This document shows, in pieces, positions 8,317 through 33,581 of a stretch of 38,005 nucleotides of DNA; position 1 is the first letter of the stretch, and the number at the start of each line of letters is the position of its first letter. Made by a program: the position numbers and the translations under genes. A model generated the notes under the pieces. The model saw only the letters and a list, made by a program, of their open reading frames with translations. It was not told the DNA's origin and made no database searches. The DNA comes from a virus, in the IMG/VR virus record IMGVR_UViG_3300044712_002644, positions 1 through 38,005 of that record; one strand, written 5' to 3'.

Positions 8317-8865
8317 CTAACTCCAGTTGATTGTTGAATTTGTTGTATATCGTGAATTCGTGAATTGAAACGTGATCATCCCCTCGCCGATCACCTCGAG
8401 AATCTCTCTGAGTTCTTCCGGAGGAATGTTCATGTACTCTCTGGCCGGGATGTGAATCACGAATACGGACCGGGTGGTCAGGGCCATGTTTCTCCACTTC
8501 GTTTCGCCGGTCTCAAACCACTTCGCCCAGAAGAAACCCCGCATTTTCTTTGTCACCGGGACCGTGATCGTGCCGCCCTCCCGTTGGATCCGCGCATAGG
8601 GCAGGTTCTTACCAACCGATACGCTTGCGAAGTTGTTTCCGGAGAATGTTTCCTTAGATCTCCGGAGAGCGCCGGTGGCCCGCAGCGGATCGCCGGTTGA
8701 GTCGGATCTGCGTTGGATCCAGGTCGGTCTTCCTCCCGCTTCGAAGTTCCGATCGATGGAGCGCCCCATCAGCTCGGCAACGATCGGCATTGTCTTGTTG
8801 ACCGTCAGCTGCGCTCGGGGGATCTCTCCAACGATGGTGAAATTGATATCGGCTACCGCGGCCAT
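8317..8865 (-). CDS. Phage virion morphogenesis protein (Mu gpG / tail-completion family)
   Basis: The protein has 182 residues. The sequence follows the family pattern: an N-terminal helix region, then a segment like F-E-A-G-G-R-P-T-W (41-49), L-R-A-T-G-A-L-R-R-S (60-69), a strand with N-L-P-Y-A-R-I-Q-R-E-G-G (87-98) and I-P-A-R-E-Y-M (139-145). Members of the Mu gpG-like family complete or stabilise the head-tail joint. It lies between connector genes and tail chaperones, the expected place, and its ATG overlaps the upstream stop (TGATG). The insertion at about 99-135 is longer than in Mu-like members, a subfamily difference. Confidence 0.8.
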   Translation of the reverse strand: MAAVADINFTIVGEIPRAQLTVNKTMPIVAELMGRSIDRNFEAGGRPTWIQRRSDSTGDPLRATGALRRSKETFSGNNFASVSVGKNLPYARIQREGGTITVPVTKKMRGFFWAKWFETGETKWRNMALTTRSVFVIHIPAREYMNIPPEELREILEVIGEGMITFQFTNSRYTTNSTINWS

Positions 8866-9365
8866 CAGTCTGATACTCCTACGAGCCGTCTGAGTTTAAT
8901 GCAGAACTCGAAGATCACGACAAGCTTTGCACCGTCATCCCCGGTGGCAATCATCGGATACTCTGAAAGAGTCTCTTTGTCGAACGATACGTTCCAGGGA
9001 TTCGTGGCATCGTTGATATATGTCGACATGAAACCGGAGATTTTTCGTTCAACGTCATTGATGATCAGCTCCTGGGCGTCGTCCGCCTCGATGTTCTCCT
9101 CGTCCGGCTTTTTGGACAGCTGTTTCACGACCTGAACTGTCACGTTGATGTCTTTATTGAAAATGGTCCGCTTATCATCAAGCTTGCCCAGCTGCCGCTT
9201 GCCGAGGTAAAAGCCCAGGTGAAGTGGTGCTTTCACGGTTTGCGGATCGATGAGCGCTCTGACAACTTTCGTATAGTTGTAGTTGTAGCCTGCCAGAGTG
9301 GTCATTCCCTCGAACTCGGTCTTCAGGGTATCCCTCAGCTGCTGGACCCGGGTAGGGTTACTCAT
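8865..9365 (-). CDS. Tail terminator/completion-like protein
   Basis: This 166-residue protein is located between a head-tail connector and the Mu gpG-like protein. There the gene order of siphophages usually puts the tail terminator or minor tail completion protein. An N-terminal helix (about 5-20) is followed by strands with many charged residues; the region PDEENIEADDAQELIINDVERKI (about 87-109) contains an amphipathic helix. The ATG overlaps the upstream stop (ATGA). I cannot match it to a named family by eye; the call is by position. Confidence 0.5.
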   Translation of the reverse strand: MSNPTRVQQLRDTLKTEFEGMTTLAGYNYNYTKVVRALIDPQTVKAPLHLGFYLGKRQLGKLDDKRTIFNKDINVTVQVVKQLSKKPDEENIEADDAQELIINDVERKISGFMSTYINDATNPWNVSFDKETLSEYPMIATGDDGAKLVVIFEFCIKLRRLVGVSD

Positions 9366-10012
9366 TTCAGTTCCTCCCGGATGTAAGCGCCGAGCAGTTC
9401 TCTCCAGCGCTTATCCATAGATTTGAACTTGATCGTCCAGTTCTGCGACTCGTTGCTTCTGGTGACCGTTTCCTTGCCGAGGTCACTGTTACCGTACGGT
9501 GATTCACGCCAAATGATCTCGCACATCTCTGCGCAGCATTGTTTGAACGACGAAGGGATAGTCTGATATCCCCGGGTTGCGAACAGTCGGATATTCTGAA
9601 TCCCTTCCGGGAATGTATAGCCGTCCAGGCGACGGTAATGCTGGTGGAAATTCTTTACGGCGTCGTTCTTGATGAGCGAGAACTGATTCGTTGCGGAGAA
9701 AATATTCTGCCATTCCGAGAGGTAATCCTCCCTCACCTGGAAGTTGTCCAGTTTATCGGGTGTTGATGTTCCGACAAGACCGACGATGGGAAAGAATGTC
9801 GGGAAGAGCGAATCTCCGCCGGACCCGTCAAGGATCTCCTCTACGTCCTGAGCCGCTACCTTATTGCCGATCAGCTGCTCGATGTAGTCGGAGGCGGAGT
9901 TGATCATCTCCTCAAGCGGAGCATCCCAGCCCGCATCCCAGGAGGCCGCGTCGACCTTCATATATTGCTTCGCCTCAGCGAGGCTAAGAATTGCTGATGC
10001 GTTCAAGCTCAT
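9362..10012 (-). CDS. Head-tail connector protein (gp6-like)
   Basis: A 216-residue protein whose N-terminus carries SLAEAKQYMKVD, the signature opening of the phage gp6-like adaptor family (YqbG, gp15/gp6). It is followed by W-D-x-x-L-E-E-M-I-N-S-A-S-D-Y-I-E-Q-L-I-G-N (about 29-49), the conserved helix of the same family. Adaptors form a dodecameric ring beneath the portal. The C-terminal half is longer than the about 100-residue minimal members. Its ATG lies inside the upstream gene with a GGAAG site before it, so the two overlap by 29 bases. Good match by pattern and context. Confidence 0.8.
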   Translation of the reverse strand: MSLNASAILSLAEAKQYMKVDAASWDAGWDAPLEEMINSASDYIEQLIGNKVAAQDVEEILDGSGGDSLFPTFFPIVGLVGTSTPDKLDNFQVREDYLSEWQNIFSATNQFSLIKNDAVKNFHQHYRRLDGYTFPEGIQNIRLFATRGYQTIPSSFKQCCAEMCEIIWRESPYGNSDLGKETVTRSNESQNWTIKFKSMDKRWRELLGAYIREELK

Positions 10013-10412
10013 ATTCGTAGCTTCCGGATGAAAGTGGAACCAGTTGATTATAGATCTGCTTTTTAAGGACCTTCATACGATCGTAGAGGATCTTTGTCGA
10101 GTCATCCTGCAGGAAGATCATCTCGCCGATTACGTATGAGTAATACAGCCTGACCTTCGCTTTCTGGCCATCGGTGAGATCCGCGAAGGCGGACATTCCC
10201 CAGGTGCTCAGGTCAGCCTCTACGTTGTCGTTTATCATTCGGATGAAGTCTCGAAGGTCCAGGTTGCTGATCTTCGCGTAGTGAATGCGAAGGTTCCGTC
10301 GAACCAGGTCCGCGTTCATAACGATCTCGGCCGCCTCGGTTGCCACCGTCGACGAATAGTAGCTGTTAATCGTCGAACCGGCCGGCTGTGATCCTATTGA
10401 TAGTCCAATCAT
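9984..10412 (-). CDS. Small head/connector-region protein, unknown function
   Basis: This 142-residue protein sits before the adaptor gene, which starts inside its final 29 bases. It is largely helical: residues 20-55 and 75-125 carry amphipathic helices with many Leu, Ile and Arg/Lys. I see no catalytic or metal motif. The ATG has a GGAG site 7-8 bases upstream. Its position suggests a head completion or adaptor-associated role, but no family is recognised. Confidence 0.55.
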   Translation of the reverse strand: MIGLSIGSQPAGSTINSYYSSTVATEAAEIVMNADLVRRNLRIHYAKISNLDLRDFIRMINDNVEADLSTWGMSAFADLTDGQKAKVRLYYSYVIGEMIFLQDDSTKILYDRMKVLKKQIYNQLVPLSSGSYEYELERISNS

Positions 10413-10431
10413 GCAAACTCCGATTCACCGG

Positions 10432-11469
10432 TTATTGTAACGTGAGGCGATAGACCAGCGTGACGCCGATAAGTGTAATTGTTCCTGTGCCTGCGCTGGT
10501 TATCACTTTGATGCCGCCGATCATTGTGGGAGTGACAGCGAGCGTGTGCGCTGAATCGCTTCCGTTCTGCACTCCGGCGGTGAGCGGGACAGTGATGTTA
10601 CTGTCGGAGAGACTTGTGGCATCAGCTGCGCCGTAACGAAGTGTAAATGAGGATCCAACGTTGAGAGAATTCGTCCCAAGCTGAATATTCATTCCGACAA
10701 TTGTTGCGGTCACGCCGAACGGCGGGTGGGCGACATTGTCCTCCGTCGAGCTTCCGGTCCCACCGCCGATCGGATAGTAATAGGTGTTGCCAGCTCCCTG
10801 GTTGGAGTCGAAGAAGAATTGATACGGGACATCGACATAGGTTTTTTGAGCTCCACCTCCGAGGGGATTAAGCAGGACGAAATAATCGTCATCCTCGCTC
10901 CACTGCAGGATAGCAATGCCGTCGGCCGGGATCTCGCCGGTCAATGGATCCCGGGCGCCTGAAGATCCGACGACCTTGATTGATTTCGATGTCACCGAGT
11001 CAACGGTAACACCACAGGCGCCGGTATTGCCGGTGGTGACGCGCAGGAGAAAGACGCTACCGTCGTGCCGGTTGAGGTCCGTAAGGCCAAACCCCGTTGT
11101 AATCACATACGCATCGTCGAGGCCGGTATCTTTGAAGAGCCTGTTCACGCCGATCAGCTCGTCTGCCAGGAGCGGCTGGTATATCACGTATTCGTATCCG
11201 GACTCGTTGTGATCCAGTGCGGTGGAACCAAATGCTCCGCGAACGACGGCGCTCATTGCATCGGTGGTTCTGGACCCGATGATCATCCATTCGTGCTTCC
11301 CGGCCTTTATCGCGAGCGATGGCGATTTATAGTCCGCCCGGTACACCCCGACCACGAATGTGGAGTCCGGCGCGTACTGCCCTTCCCCGGTTGTAACGCT
11401 GAAGGATGTTGCAGCTGCAGCAATACCCGCTGCAAGCCTGGATTCGAATAAGTTCTTTCTGTTATACAT
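10432..11469 (-). CDS. Virion surface protein (fibre/decoration-like)
   Basis: A 345-residue beta-rich protein. Residues 8-105 form a module widely seen at the N-terminus of phage virion proteins: LAAGIAAAATSFSV, then E-W-M-I-I-G-S-R, V-V-R-G-A-F-G-S-T-A-L-D-H-N and G-Y-E-Y-V-I-Y. The rest is Gly/Thr/Ser-rich with short strands and ends in an immunoglobulin-like or jelly-roll stretch. The gene lies in a block of four surface proteins between the major capsid and connector genes, so it may be exposed on the head or neck. AGGAG precedes the ATG. Role is inference. Confidence 0.6.
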   Translation of the reverse strand: MYNRKNLFESRLAAGIAAAATSFSVTTGEGQYAPDSTFVVGVYRADYKSPSLAIKAGKHEWMIIGSRTTDAMSAVVRGAFGSTALDHNESGYEYVIYQPLLADELIGVNRLFKDTGLDDAYVITTGFGLTDLNRHDGSVFLLRVTTGNTGACGVTVDSVTSKSIKVVGSSGARDPLTGEIPADGIAILQWSEDDDYFVLLNPLGGGAQKTYVDVPYQFFFDSNQGAGNTYYYPIGGGTGSSTEDNVAHPPFGVTATIVGMNIQLGTNSLNVGSSFTLRYGAADATSLSDSNITVPLTAGVQNGSDSAHTLAVTPTMIGGIKVITSAGTGTITLIGVTLVYRLTLQ

Positions 11470-21728: not shown

Positions 21729-23123
21729 TTAGGACAAAGCCCAGGTGATCTCCTTACCGTTGATCTTCACGATGTTGTCTCCGCTCAGTTTTACATACCG
21801 GGATACGATTACATCGCAGTAATTCGGGTCCAATTCCAAACCGATACAGGTGCGGTCAAGCTGCTCGCAAGCAATTAAAGTGGTGCCGCTGCCGAGAAAA
21901 CCGTCGCCGACTATATCGCCAGCCTTGCTGCTATTCTGCACCTGGTAAGCGATGAGATCTACTGGCTTCATAGTCGGATGCTCTTCGCTCTTTGTGGGTC
22001 GATCGAACTCAAGGATGGTGGTTTGTGTCCGGTCTGAATACCATTGATGGGCCTCGCCGGTTCTCCAACCATAGAGGCAAGGCTCGTGCTGCCAGTGATA
22101 ATCATTCCGACCCAATACCATTTGATTTTTCTTCCAGATCAGGCATTGGGATAGCTTGAATCCTGCATCGATGAACGCCTTTCGGAAATTCACTCCTTCG
22201 GTGTCTGCGTGCCATACATACCAGCTGGCGCCGAGCTTCGTGTGGCTTCGGAAATTGGTGTAGAACTGCAGGAGGAAGTTGTAGAAATCATCCGGAGTCT
22301 TATTATCGTTCAGGATGGTGAGTGCGCTCCGTGTTTTCCCGGTGTAGTCGACGTTATAGGGAGGATCGGTAACCACGAGATCAAATTGAACTCCCGCGGC
22401 GACCTTCTCTACATCTTCCAGGAGAGTGGAATCGCCACATAGGACCCTGTGCCGACCCAGTTCAATGATATCCCCGCGTTGGATGATGGTCTCTCGGGGA
22501 AGTTCGGGAACATCGTCTTGCTTCACCACCTTTTCCAGCAATCGCTCAACGGATTTTGCCAGCTCATCGAATCGGAGATCTGACGCCAGGTCCGGCATGG
22601 AAACATTTATCTCGTCCAAGAGGGTCAGCAGTTCCGAGGTATATTCTCCTGCGATCGCCTGGCTGTTGGCGGCGATGTTCGCGGCGGTGTGGCGAGCCTC
22701 GGTCCAGTCTACTTCCCGGTATTTGAAGCGTTCTCCTCCCACGACGATAGATCCTTCGGCTGTGGTGCCAGTGGCTGTCGGTGGGTCATACCGGCGATCG
22801 ATCTCGATCGTGGCATAGTCGGAAAAGATGGAACTGCGTTGATGTCCGGAGATGAGGCGTTTATTGCTGTTGTTGAAGACGATACCTGAAAGATCCCCGA
22901 ACTCTTCCATCGATCGCTTCAGCGCGGCTTTGGCTTCGTCGTCAATGGTGCGTGGATTGCGTTCCCAGGGTTTCAGTTCTTCCATGATTGATTGGGTAGT
23001 GAATAAAAGCGCCGGGGGAGCTACCCCCGGCTGTTCGTCGTATGGGCGGTCCGTAACCATCAGGGATCTTCGTCTTAAAGGGAAGCAGCTTCTTCCAGTC
23101 CAAGCGTGAAACGTTGTCCCCAT
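21729..23123 (-). CDS. ParB-like domain fused to DNA methyltransferase
   Basis: The 464-residue protein has an N-terminal ParB/sulfiredoxin-like domain (about 42-135) with a GHQR box at 93-96 and the opening I-M-E-E-L-K-P-W-E-R-N-P-R-T. A DNA adenine/cytosine-N4 methyltransferase follows: DPPY at 253-256, HPTMKP at 382-387, and FLGSGTT at 409-415 (cofactor binding). DPPY before the FxGxGTT motif marks a beta-class enzyme. The ATG has an AGGTG site; Met47, just before the ParB-like domain, is an alternative start. It likely protects phage DNA from restriction, or marks packaging DNA. Located before the terminase genes. Confidence 0.9.
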   Translation of the reverse strand: MGTTFHAWTGRSCFPLRRRSLMVTDRPYDEQPGVAPPALLFTTQSIMEELKPWERNPRTIDDEAKAALKRSMEEFGDLSGIVFNNSNKRLISGHQRSSIFSDYATIEIDRRYDPPTATGTTAEGSIVVGGERFKYREVDWTEARHTAANIAANSQAIAGEYTSELLTLLDEINVSMPDLASDLRFDELAKSVERLLEKVVKQDDVPELPRETIIQRGDIIELGRHRVLCGDSTLLEDVEKVAAGVQFDLVVTDPPYNVDYTGKTRSALTILNDNKTPDDFYNFLLQFYTNFRSHTKLGASWYVWHADTEGVNFRKAFIDAGFKLSQCLIWKKNQMVLGRNDYHWQHEPCLYGWRTGEAHQWYSDRTQTTILEFDRPTKSEEHPTMKPVDLIAYQVQNSSKAGDIVGDGFLGSGTTLIACEQLDRTCIGLELDPNYCDVIVSRYVKLSGDNIVKINGKEITWALS

Positions 23124-30491: not shown

Positions 30492-30949
30492 TTCCCCTCC
30501 TTGATGAATTTTTCTTTTGCCGATTCACTTCTTGATTTTGCTTCACTGGCTTGATACGCTGCTGTTCCCATCATCGCCGGCGTTGGGTTCTCCCAGGATT
30601 GCCAGTCGTTGAACCATGTCGATCCGTTCTGCAGAAATCCCTTCATCGCCTTATCCGATTGGATGTAGTTGTCGAGCGCCTTCCATATCCTCTGAATGTC
30701 CTCGGCCTTTTTCACGGTGCCAAAGAAGTGCCGTTCAGCTGCTTTCTTTCCCACCCGGTTCGGATACTGCTCCCATATCATCTCGAAGTCCTTCTGGCGG
30801 ATCGATCCATCCCCTTCGAGGGCTCCCTTGAGGTATGCCTTCAGGATCGATAGATCCTTCACCACCTGGTCGGCCAGCTTCCCGGCTGCTTCCGCTTTAT
30901 CGAATAGCGCGATCGTGTTCTGGAGCGCTTTCAGTTCTTTCGGTTTCAT
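30488..30949 (-). CDS. Replication protein-like, C-terminal domain only
   Basis: A 153-residue protein. Residues 50-115 follow a pattern common to the C-terminal part of phage replication initiators: F-E-M-I-W-E-Q-Y-P-N-R-V-G-K-K-A-A and later W-F-N-D-W-Q-S-W (114-121). The N-terminal half is a helical domain, unlike the winged helix seen in full-length initiators, so the protein may pair with the HNH/winged-helix protein upstream. ATG overlaps the upstream stop (ATGA). A role in recruiting helicase or priming is inference. Confidence 0.65.
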   Translation of the reverse strand: MKPKELKALQNTIALFDKAEAAGKLADQVVKDLSILKAYLKGALEGDGSIRQKDFEMIWEQYPNRVGKKAAERHFFGTVKKAEDIQRIWKALDNYIQSDKAMKGFLQNGSTWFNDWQSWENPTPAMMGTAAYQASEAKSRSESAKEKFIKEGK

Positions 30950-31635
30950 TCTGTTGTTTCCTGTGGTTTCGTCGGTCTGATTTGTTCCAGGTCCGCTTTG
31001 GTCATCACGTAGATCTCGCCGTCGTAGTTTCCGATATCGCCGATCGCGAAGATGGTACCTGCGGTATCGTCCATCCGTCCGACGTAGGTATATTCACCGA
31101 AGTATGAGGCCAGCTTGTCCAGATACCTTGATCCTGTTGATTGTGCACACCCGGCCGCTTCTGAACAGGCATCAATGATGTCCTTCCTTTTGGCGATCCC
31201 CGATTTCATGGCGATGAGCTCTCTGACCTTAGCACGGAAGATCGGTTCCGATATCTCGTTCTTCTTCATCGCTGCTGGCTTTTCCTTACTATCTCTCCAC
31301 CTCCACTCCTTCTCACCTTCCCACACTCTCTCACTTTCTTTCACAACCTTGTTTTTCAAATACTTGAAACCACTAAACTTAGGCCGCATTGTCTTCCCGC
31401 GGGGATCCTGAGCGCAGTTGCAAGGATGACAGGCCAGCGCGTGATTGGATCCATCTATGGGGTTATTCTCACGATTCCGGTCCAGGTGGTGAAGATCGAA
31501 GTCGTGCCCCGATTGTTTCCGGTACTCCTCCCCGGTGATGTTGTTGCACCGGATACCAATCGAGCATTTGTCGCCGTCTCGTTCCCTGCAGAGCTCTCTT
31601 GCTTTCCGTTTCTGGGTTGAGTTTAATACTGCCAT
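30946..31635 (-). CDS. HNH protein with C-terminal winged-helix-like domain
   Basis: The preferred ATG at 31635 gives 229 residues; an upstream TTG would add four. A zinc-bound HNH nuclease motif is seen: a CSIGIRC pair (25-31), DFDLHHLDRNRENNPIDGSN with the catalytic His pair (48-49), and C-H-P-C-N-C (68-73). The second part (about 125-220) has a helix-turn-helix-like stretch (AKVRELIAMKSGIAKRKDII) and a C-terminal beta hairpin. The domain pairing suggests a DNA-binding replication or recombination factor. Confidence 0.7.
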   Translation of the reverse strand: MAVLNSTQKRKARELCRERDGDKCSIGIRCNNITGEEYRKQSGHDFDLHHLDRNRENNPIDGSNHALACHPCNCAQDPRGKTMRPKFSGFKYLKNKVVKESERVWEGEKEWRWRDSKEKPAAMKKNEISEPIFRAKVRELIAMKSGIAKRKDIIDACSEAAGCAQSTGSRYLDKLASYFGEYTYVGRMDDTAGTIFAIGDIGNYDGEIYVMTKADLEQIRPTKPQETTE

Positions 31636-31657
31636 TGATTCTTTCAATTTTCAGTTG

Positions 31658-31888
31658 TTATTCGTTCGCCCACTTGAGTGCGAGCTTTGAAGTATCCTTG
31701 ATCGGACGGATATCGATCGGTAGAAAGAGGAGGTTCGATGCCTCCGCATTCTTCGTGGTTGCACCGCGTCCGGCTCCGAAGATCTCGAAGACGAAGGGGA
31801 TATGCGTGTTGCGCTTTTTGTGAATAGCCCCTTTCCGTCCATTGACTACAGGCAGCCTTCTCGTGTCTTCCATCTTTGATTCGCGCAT
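31658..31888 (-). CDS. Small basic protein, unknown function
   Basis: A 76-residue basic protein with a strong AGGAGG site before its ATG, which overlaps the stop of the Cys-rich extension frame (TAATG). The middle (about 25-55) has strands IPFVFEIFGAG and NLLFLPIDIRP, and the end is a helix (TSKLALKWANE). No motif recognised. Strong initiation suggests useful amounts. Confidence 0.55.
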   Translation of the reverse strand: MRESKMEDTRRLPVVNGRKGAIHKKRNTHIPFVFEIFGAGRGATTKNAEASNLLFLPIDIRPIKDTSKLALKWANE

Positions 31889-32046
31889 TACCTGCCTCCT
31901 ATCATTCTTTCATACTCCCGGACACAGCTGGTATTATCACACAACGTCCGGGACTTGTTCGCCCAGCTGCAGGGTCCCGATCTGCCGAAACAGGCGTTAT
32001 CTTCCGTGCACCCGCAGATCTGACAGACCCCGCTTTTGATTACTTC
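31888..32046 (-). CDS. Cys-rich zinc-finger extension of ParB, likely by -1 frameshift
   Basis: This 52-codon frame has no ATG, GTG or TTG near its start. It continues in the -1 frame from the A9 run (32055-32047) at the end of the ParB gene. The peptide has C-Q-I-C-G-C-T-E-D-N-A-C, then G-P-C-S-W and L-C-D-N-T-S-C, a conserved phage zinc-finger type usually fused to ParB-like proteins. The slip site A AAA AAG is the one used in bacterial dnaX. The fusion would be about 564 residues. A single-base error in A9 would give the same result. Confidence 0.7.
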   Translation of the reverse strand, partial: EVIKSGVCQICGCTEDNACFGRSGPCSWANKSRTLCDNTSCVREYERMIGGR

Positions 32047-33581
32047 TTTTTTTTTACCTGCTTTTTTCCGGGCTTGGGTGTTTTCTCCTCGTCCTTGATC
32101 AGCTGCTCCATCTTCTTCACGGTGGACTTCCAGTCAATACCGAGAGCTTCGCAGAGCTTCCAGGTGGATTTGGGAATTTCACCGTCGTAGTGGAAGCTGA
32201 ACTCATTTGAGCTCATCAAGAATCCGAGGTGCAATAGTTGGTTTTTGCTTAGCTTCGAAACTAAGTGCTTGAACATTTTGTCAATGTCTGCGTATTCTCT
32301 TTTTCCTATGAGTGCCTGGAATAAATCACTAAATCCGTCGGCAGTGTCTACAATTGTTTTCACGATCCATTCATGGACCTCCTGGGGAAGTGAGTCCGGA
32401 ACCTTGAGCAGAATCTCCTCAGCAATCGGCTGGAGGATGCGCAGCGATCTTTGGCACTGTTGTTTCTCCAGCCTCGCCCGTTCCTCATAACTCAGCTCTT
32501 TTTTCTTCGGCTTCGGTGCGGACTTCTTTCCTCCCTCCTTCTGTTCATCGTTCATCGGGATACGTTTCGGTTTCACCCACTCCATTGCTCCGCGTCTGTC
32601 CGAATCGGTATGAATGGCCTGCACTGCACCTTTGTCCCCGGCCTTTGCCGGTTTCACTTCATTACCGCCGAGCACGTTCTTTGAACCGGGCCGGTCGTTG
32701 TTAACGATGACGAATGTTTCTCCGGACTGACGCAGTTTCTTTATGTTGCGTTCGAACAGTGCTTCCTTCTTCAACTTAAAGCAGGCACTGTCCGTGCACC
32801 GGGCCGCTTTGCCGAGATCTCCGAACAGATCCGGAGCGTTGGCTGTGGACTTGGCACAGGTGGTGCACGGTCCGGCCGCGGGAAGAAGATCTGCATCCTT
32901 TTTATCGAACGGAGCGGACGACAGCTCCAGGTGGTATTCCCGCTTGATGTGGAACTCAATATCATCCGGGTCCAGTGCGAAGTTCATATTGAGCTCGTCC
33001 TCAATGTAGCCCACAAGACTCCTCTGCTGCTCCTCCGTCTGCCGGGCGAGCATCATTGCGATTTGCTTTGAGATCTTATCCTGGCGGAACAGCACCTGAA
33101 AGGGTTCGATCAGGCCGACAAGAACGATCGTCTGCCACACGTAAGATTTGGACTTCCCGATCTCCGCTGCCAGTGATTCAACGGTGTACCGGTTCGTCTT
33201 GGTCTTCGGATCGATCAGGTCCAGGAGGGATTTCAGCGACTTCGCTTCATCCATGGCATGGACATCCTTCCGCTGGATGTTCTCAATGTTTTGGGCAACT
33301 ACCACCTGCGTATCGTCATAGTCACACACGATTGCATCGATGGTGGTCTTTCCCGACTCCTTCAGCTGGTGAGCCCTGTACCGGCGTTCACCAATAATCA
33401 GTTCGTAGAATCCGTTCTTCTCGAAGTGCGGACGGACCCGGACCGGCTGGATCAATCCGCTCTCCTTTATTGACTGTGCCAGGGAGACGAGATCTTCTTT
33501 TTTGTAGTCCGCATGGTTCCGGGGGTTCGTGTGTGACGGGACAATCTTGTCCAGGGGTATTTGAACAAACGTTTCTTCCAT
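32040..33581 (-). CDS. ParB-like partition/chromosome-binding protein
   Basis: The 513-residue protein has a ParB/Spo0J N-domain: L-D-K-I-V-P-S (10-16), N-P-R near 19-21, and the CTP-binding G-E-R-R-Y-R-A at 64-70, then E-N-I-Q-R-K-D-V-H near 100-108. A helix-turn-helix (about 129-160) follows, then two Cys pairs (239/242 and 262/267) in a possible zinc site. A Lys-rich linker (330-365) and a C-terminal helical domain (about 370-505) complete it. Strong SD site. Role may be DNA-binding in replication or packaging; no ParA gene is seen, so true plasmid-type partition is unlikely. Confidence 0.85.
   Translation of the reverse strand: MEETFVQIPLDKIVPSHTNPRNHADYKKEDLVSLAQSIKESGLIQPVRVRPHFEKNGFYELIIGERRYRAHQLKESGKTTIDAIVCDYDDTQVVVAQNIENIQRKDVHAMDEAKSLKSLLDLIDPKTKTNRYTVESLAAEIGKSKSYVWQTIVLVGLIEPFQVLFRQDKISKQIAMMLARQTEEQQRSLVGYIEDELNMNFALDPDDIEFHIKREYHLELSSAPFDKKDADLLPAAGPCTTCAKSTANAPDLFGDLGKAARCTDSACFKLKKEALFERNIKKLRQSGETFVIVNNDRPGSKNVLGGNEVKPAKAGDKGAVQAIHTDSDRRGAMEWVKPKRIPMNDEQKEGGKKSAPKPKKKELSYEERARLEKQQCQRSLRILQPIAEEILLKVPDSLPQEVHEWIVKTIVDTADGFSDLFQALIGKREYADIDKMFKHLVSKLSKNQLLHLGFLMSSNEFSFHYDGEIPKSTWKLCEALGIDWKSTVKKMEQLIKDEEKTPKPGKKQVKKKK

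Follow-up and report, generated by a model that had tools for sequence, protein, structure and literature searches.

A phage ParB-like gene ending in an A9 tract, a candidate site of slippage into a cysteine-rich finger

The window analysed here is the entire 38,005 bp IMG/VR record IMGVR_UViG_3300044712_002644, and on its minus strand a gene for a ParB-like protein runs into a short reading frame that encodes a cysteine-rich finger (Table 1). The ParB-like protein has the N-terminal and HTH domains of ParB/Spo0J-like proteins by Pfam, and its TIGR00180 score lies above the cut-off. A cysteine cluster sits in the centre of the protein and the C terminus is lysine-rich (...GKKQVKKKK), with final codons GTA AAA AAA AAG AAG TAA. 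Read in the -1 frame, the tail continues as ...KKK-EVIKSGVCQICGCTEDNACFGRSGPCSWANKSRTLCDNTSCVREYERMIGGR-stop, which would extend ParB to a 564-residue fusion. The original prediction, that this gene may shift frame into a zinc finger, described the ParB end, the A9 tract, the heptamer, the frame, the coordinates and the residue counts (52 added, 564 in total) correctly throughout. Of the reading frames across the finger region, only the -1 frame is open throughout, and it also has the top codon score. Because the finger is intact, lies in the coding frame and has the ATG of the next gene overlapping its stop, it looks like a live part of a gene.

Table 1. Features around the end of the ParB-like gene, listed in the direction of transcription.
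Feature	Position	Strand	Basis or remark
ParB-like protein, 513 aa	32040..33581	-	Pfam ParB_N 4e-20, HTH_ParB 6e-8; TIGR00180 2e-34
Second in-frame A_AAA_AAG (GGA AAA AAG), leading into the same -1 frame	32061..32067	-	begins 15 nt upstream of the first
A9 tract	32047..32055	-	sequence; the next G completes the heptamer
Zero-frame slippery heptamer A_AAA_AAG	32046-32052	-	in the ParB frame
TAATC, ParB stop TAA overlapping an in-frame ATC by 1 nt; perhaps a non-canonical or lost start codon for a separate finger gene	32038..32042	-	sequence
-1 frame extension, 52 residues, cysteine-rich finger	31888..32046	-	reading frames; codon score; AlphaFold mean pLDDT 90
Stable hairpin within the finger coding region	31969..32033	-	-38.1 kcal/mol for a 99-nt window; starts 12 nt past the heptamer
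Next gene, 76 aa, its ATG overlapping the finger stop as TAATG	31658..31888	-	sequence

The finger has the pattern C-x2-CGCT-x4-C-x6-C-x-W-x7-C-x4-C and retains every element that is invariant in a 40-member family alignment, namely C, C-G-C-T, C, C-x-W, C, and C. AlphaFold predicted a confident 50-residue fold with a helix at its end. The finger is present in more than 100 viral contigs, and it found no match among the models of Pfam, PHROG, and NCBIfam or among PDB sequences, nor did a structure search with the finger model return anything significant; the family is widespread in phages and unnamed in Pfam, PHROGs, and NCBIfam. Searching with the finger as query also recovered one distant standalone copy (L217). 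In viral contigs L298-L416, the C-x2-CGCT finger mostly occurs without an adjacent ParB in the stretch covered. Two loci show other domain orders: a single open frame on the minus strand of L103 (~8331-10523) joins the finger to a ParB-like domain and to what looks like part of an adenine methylase (domains assigned by eye), and in L394 (3470-3601) the finger lies on the N-terminal side of an ORF matching the ParB profile, reversing the usual order.

Most ParB relatives lack the finger, and many of them terminate in a lysine- or alanine-rich tail, so the 513-aa form is plausibly a complete ParB. Among the relatives that have both, we found the finger in three states. An in-frame ParB-finger fusion is present in about 10 loci (L120, L126, L136, L152, L306, L315, L329, L345, L409), and L089 and L131, though truncated, appear to have it as well. 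These fusions confirm the statement in the original prediction that other phages fuse this finger in frame to ParB-like proteins (L120, L136, L345, and others). Like the window, the fused proteins (L120, L136, L345, L306, and others) consist of ParB, a linker that is lysine-rich in several of them, and a finger of the same family; unlike the window, they are encoded in one frame, making slippage unnecessary. Other relatives encode the finger separately, in an overlapping gene that uses a different frame and has a start of its own: a GTG after AAGGAGG in L129/L154, an ATG after GGAG in L033 and, where the finger is in the -1 frame, the start codon of a GTGA overlap in L301 or of an ATGA overlap in L371. 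ParB in these overlapping pairs stops just before a finger in a different frame, as it does in the window, though their fingers have a GTG or ATG, with a Shine-Dalgarno sequence in some. Lastly, the finger is a separate gene further downstream of ParB in L140, L162/L164, and Variovorax phage VarioGold. With these three states among relatives, the ParB-finger junction offers a good natural series for the fusion of overlapping genes.

The window's own arrangement was not seen in any relative. Searches with ParB or with the neighbouring Sak4-like protein recovered no close relatives, megablast against phages gave no close match, and a tree of ParB proteins gave no supported grouping of the window with a relative that has the finger; an eight-sequence alignment (A2) was dropped as a search input because it was too diverse. 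We found no close relative of the ParB-finger pair, and the A9/heptamer site was not seen in any distant one. A terminase query recovered two records of 38,705 and 38,847 bp (L417 and L421), near the window in size, with terminases 50% and 47% identical to its own; neither record matched the window's ParB or finger.

Upstream of the first cysteine, as far back as the previous in-frame stop, the -1 frame contains no ATG, GTG, or TTG, which bears out the original prediction that the finger has no start of its own ahead of the first cysteine pair. The non-canonical codons in this frame are a CTG far upstream and the ATC overlapping the ParB stop, which the prediction overlooked and which lies five codons upstream of the first cysteine. 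By comparison, all of the other finger ORFs from related loci, 130 in number, have either a canonical start or an in-frame fusion, whether to ParB or to another protein.

The end of the ParB gene is suited in sequence to two kinds of slippage: A_AAA_AAG stands in the zero frame, giving the X_XXY_YYZ arrangement of -1 frameshifting of the dnaX/IS3 type, and the A9 lies in the coding strand, where one additional A restores the downstream frame, as in transcriptional slippage. In a set of 156 complete, distinct ParB tails, the window's is alone in having a run of A8 or longer (0 of the 155 others), and an in-frame A_AAA_AAA/G is found in four, the window among them. When the last 25 ParB residues were resampled synonymously with the phage's own codon usage, A9 or more arose in 12% of trials and an in-frame A_AAA_AAG in 30%; across 20 genes, 3 such heptamers were observed against 2.45 expected. 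A lysine-rich tail therefore yields A9 by chance at a rate of ~12%, making the tract weak evidence on its own. Together, the resampling frequencies and the survey of starts leave the missing start as the odd fact and the A9 as its plausible, though not compelling, cause.

We suggest, tentatively, that slippage at the A9 yields a certain amount of ParB-finger fusion, a reading that we regard as possible rather than probable, and that the slippage is more likely transcriptional. RNA polymerase would add one A to give an A10 mRNA, and -1 slippage of the ribosome on A_AAA_AAG might make a small added contribution. The ordinary product would be the 513-aa ParB ending in its lysine tail, and the finger would appear only in a minority of products, as a C-terminal addition giving the 564-aa ParB-finger protein. 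We infer that slippage occurs and that both forms are made, in which case the finger may provide ParB with a zinc-dependent contact to DNA or protein. This reading is supported by a finger that is intact yet lacks a canonical start, unlike 130 of 130 others, and by how common ParB-finger fusions are in relatives; the only A8-or-longer tail of the 156, the in-frame heptamers and the strong hairpin just downstream add to this support. It is weakened by the chance frequency of A9, by the absence of the same arrangement from the relatives found and by the separate finger genes with their own start in several relatives, which go halfway towards an outcome that the original prediction had named as speaking against it. 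It is weakened, too, by the TAATC, which is correctly placed for a coupled start and which slippage leaves unexplained (by our own estimate, chance would place it there in perhaps one case in 4 to one in 10). As sequence, the arrangement is real and worth a reporter test; as programmed frameshifting, it is a candidate.

Nine As are enough for RNA polymerase to slip, with Thermus dnaX as an example, and give "pseudo-pseudogenes"; selection against slippage becomes visible at nine As in many bacteria (PMC1088944). Thermus thermophilus dnaX shares with the window a run of A9 in the coding strand at which slippage alters the C terminus (PMC1088944), though its slipped product is shorter, whereas the one predicted for the window would be longer. 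A close parallel is tssM1 of Citrobacter rodentium, in which RNA polymerase slippage rescues a stop preceded by A11 and thereby provides two required protein lengths (PMC4256274). There, as here, the A-run lies shortly before the stop, and, as predicted here, an extra A restores a C-terminal domain that is fused in relatives (PMC4256274), but the run is A11 in tssM1 and A9 in the window, which is a candidate only.

For ribosomal slippage, few motifs in E. coli are as prone to shifting as A_AAA_AAG, which does so at ~0.3% without stimulators (PMC4066793). The -1 frameshift of E. coli dnaX occurs on the same heptamer and in the same frame register as in the window. Compared with E. coli dnaX, however, the window has no Shine-Dalgarno-like stimulator 10-14 nt upstream, an optional element in whose place it has AAAAAAG, with an AGG only 4 nt upstream; its hairpin is not close to the heptamer, and its predicted product gains a domain rather than loses one. 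The hairpin ranks in the top 1% of windows across the genome, and only 1 to 4 of 500 synonymous versions were equally stable. It was at first accepted as support for frameshifting, and this was weakened by a control of 124 fingers in which its codon-shuffle z ranked 6th, which is not exceptional. The usual spacing between heptamer and structure is 5-8 nt (PMC4066793), and the 12 nt found here lies outside that range. Both the spacing of the hairpin and the absence of a Shine-Dalgarno-like stimulator cut against a programmed ribosomal signal, and because of the spacing and the rank we favour transcriptional over ribosomal slippage. The frameshift interpretation of the original prediction is thus partly supported: the A9 and A_AAA_AAG are correctly framed for a fusion, but the stimulators of the dnaX type are missing or badly spaced.

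Three other accounts of the missing start have to be weighed against slippage, the first two of them, a restart at the ATC and a genuine A10 fusion, being serious rivals, and the weights given to all four are matters of judgement. The finger may be a separate, translationally coupled gene, with ribosomes that finish ParB restarting at the ATC and the A9 being mere codons of the lysine tail, which we consider somewhat unlikely. Overlaps of 1 and 4 nt are spacings that couple translation (PMC10666635), and the phage packs its genes in this way, with 1-nt overlaps (TAATG or TGATG) in 6 gene pairs and 4-nt overlaps in 17. The TAATC is such an overlap: its ATC, which has one base in common with the ParB stop, is in frame with the finger and only five codons ahead of the first cysteine. 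Several of the fingers closest to the window's open shortly ahead of G-[VT]-C (MSYGTC in L336, MSHGTC in L339, MYGVC in L347, MKGVC in L404, MSEELKKGVC in L034), so (ATC)KSGVC would be a typical start were its codon ATG. Among the best-scoring fingers, which resemble the window's most closely, only a minority are joined to ParB, and the -1 frame fingers of relatives begin through the GTGA (L301) or ATGA (L371) overlap, with L129 and L033 having their own starts too. Against this, bacteria initiate very poorly at AUC, none of the 130 other fingers examined starts with it, no strong Shine-Dalgarno sequence precedes it, and the hairpin starts within the supposed gene, 8 nt in.

Indel errors and replication slippage both occur most often in homopolymers of 9-10. 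The proneness of such runs to both (PMC1088944) makes it conceivable, if unlikely, that the true genome or much of the population has A10, the A9 reflecting either an error in the consensus or one length among several in a hypermutable run. One added A gives ...QVKKKEVIKSGVCQICGCT, a normal in-frame fusion as in the roughly 10 relatives, but A10 runs are themselves rare in coding DNA, and inspection of the 38-kb record by eye showed no other gene apparently interrupted by a frameshift, so the assembly bears no sign of frequent indels. It is very unlikely, in our estimation, that the finger gene has lost its start and is unexpressed, or expressed only by accident; the absence of a canonical start and an arrangement without close relatives would fit such a loss, but the finger retains all family-invariant cysteines and the tryptophan, its frame has stayed free of stops, and it is closely packed against the next gene.

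In phages and mobile elements, the recoding events known from experiment fall mostly in tail chaperone genes and insertion sequences. Were slippage at the A9 to be true, ParB in two forms, with and without the finger, would be a new recoding target. That the phage makes ParB in two lengths at a set ratio, with the frame break a selected switch by which A9 slippage appends the finger, seems to us distinctly unlikely. With or without slippage, the relatives show a pair of phage proteins moving between fused, overlapping, and separate states.

Elsewhere on the minus strand of the window, we noted an HNH-like pattern by eye (CSIGIRC...HHLDRNRENNP...HALACHPCNCAQD) in the gene at 30946-31647, which had no Pfam match at the threshold used. 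The gene at 21729-23123 encodes a DNA methylase (N6_N4_Mtase), and its N-terminal part appears ParB/sulfiredoxin-like by eye (NPRT...SGHQR).
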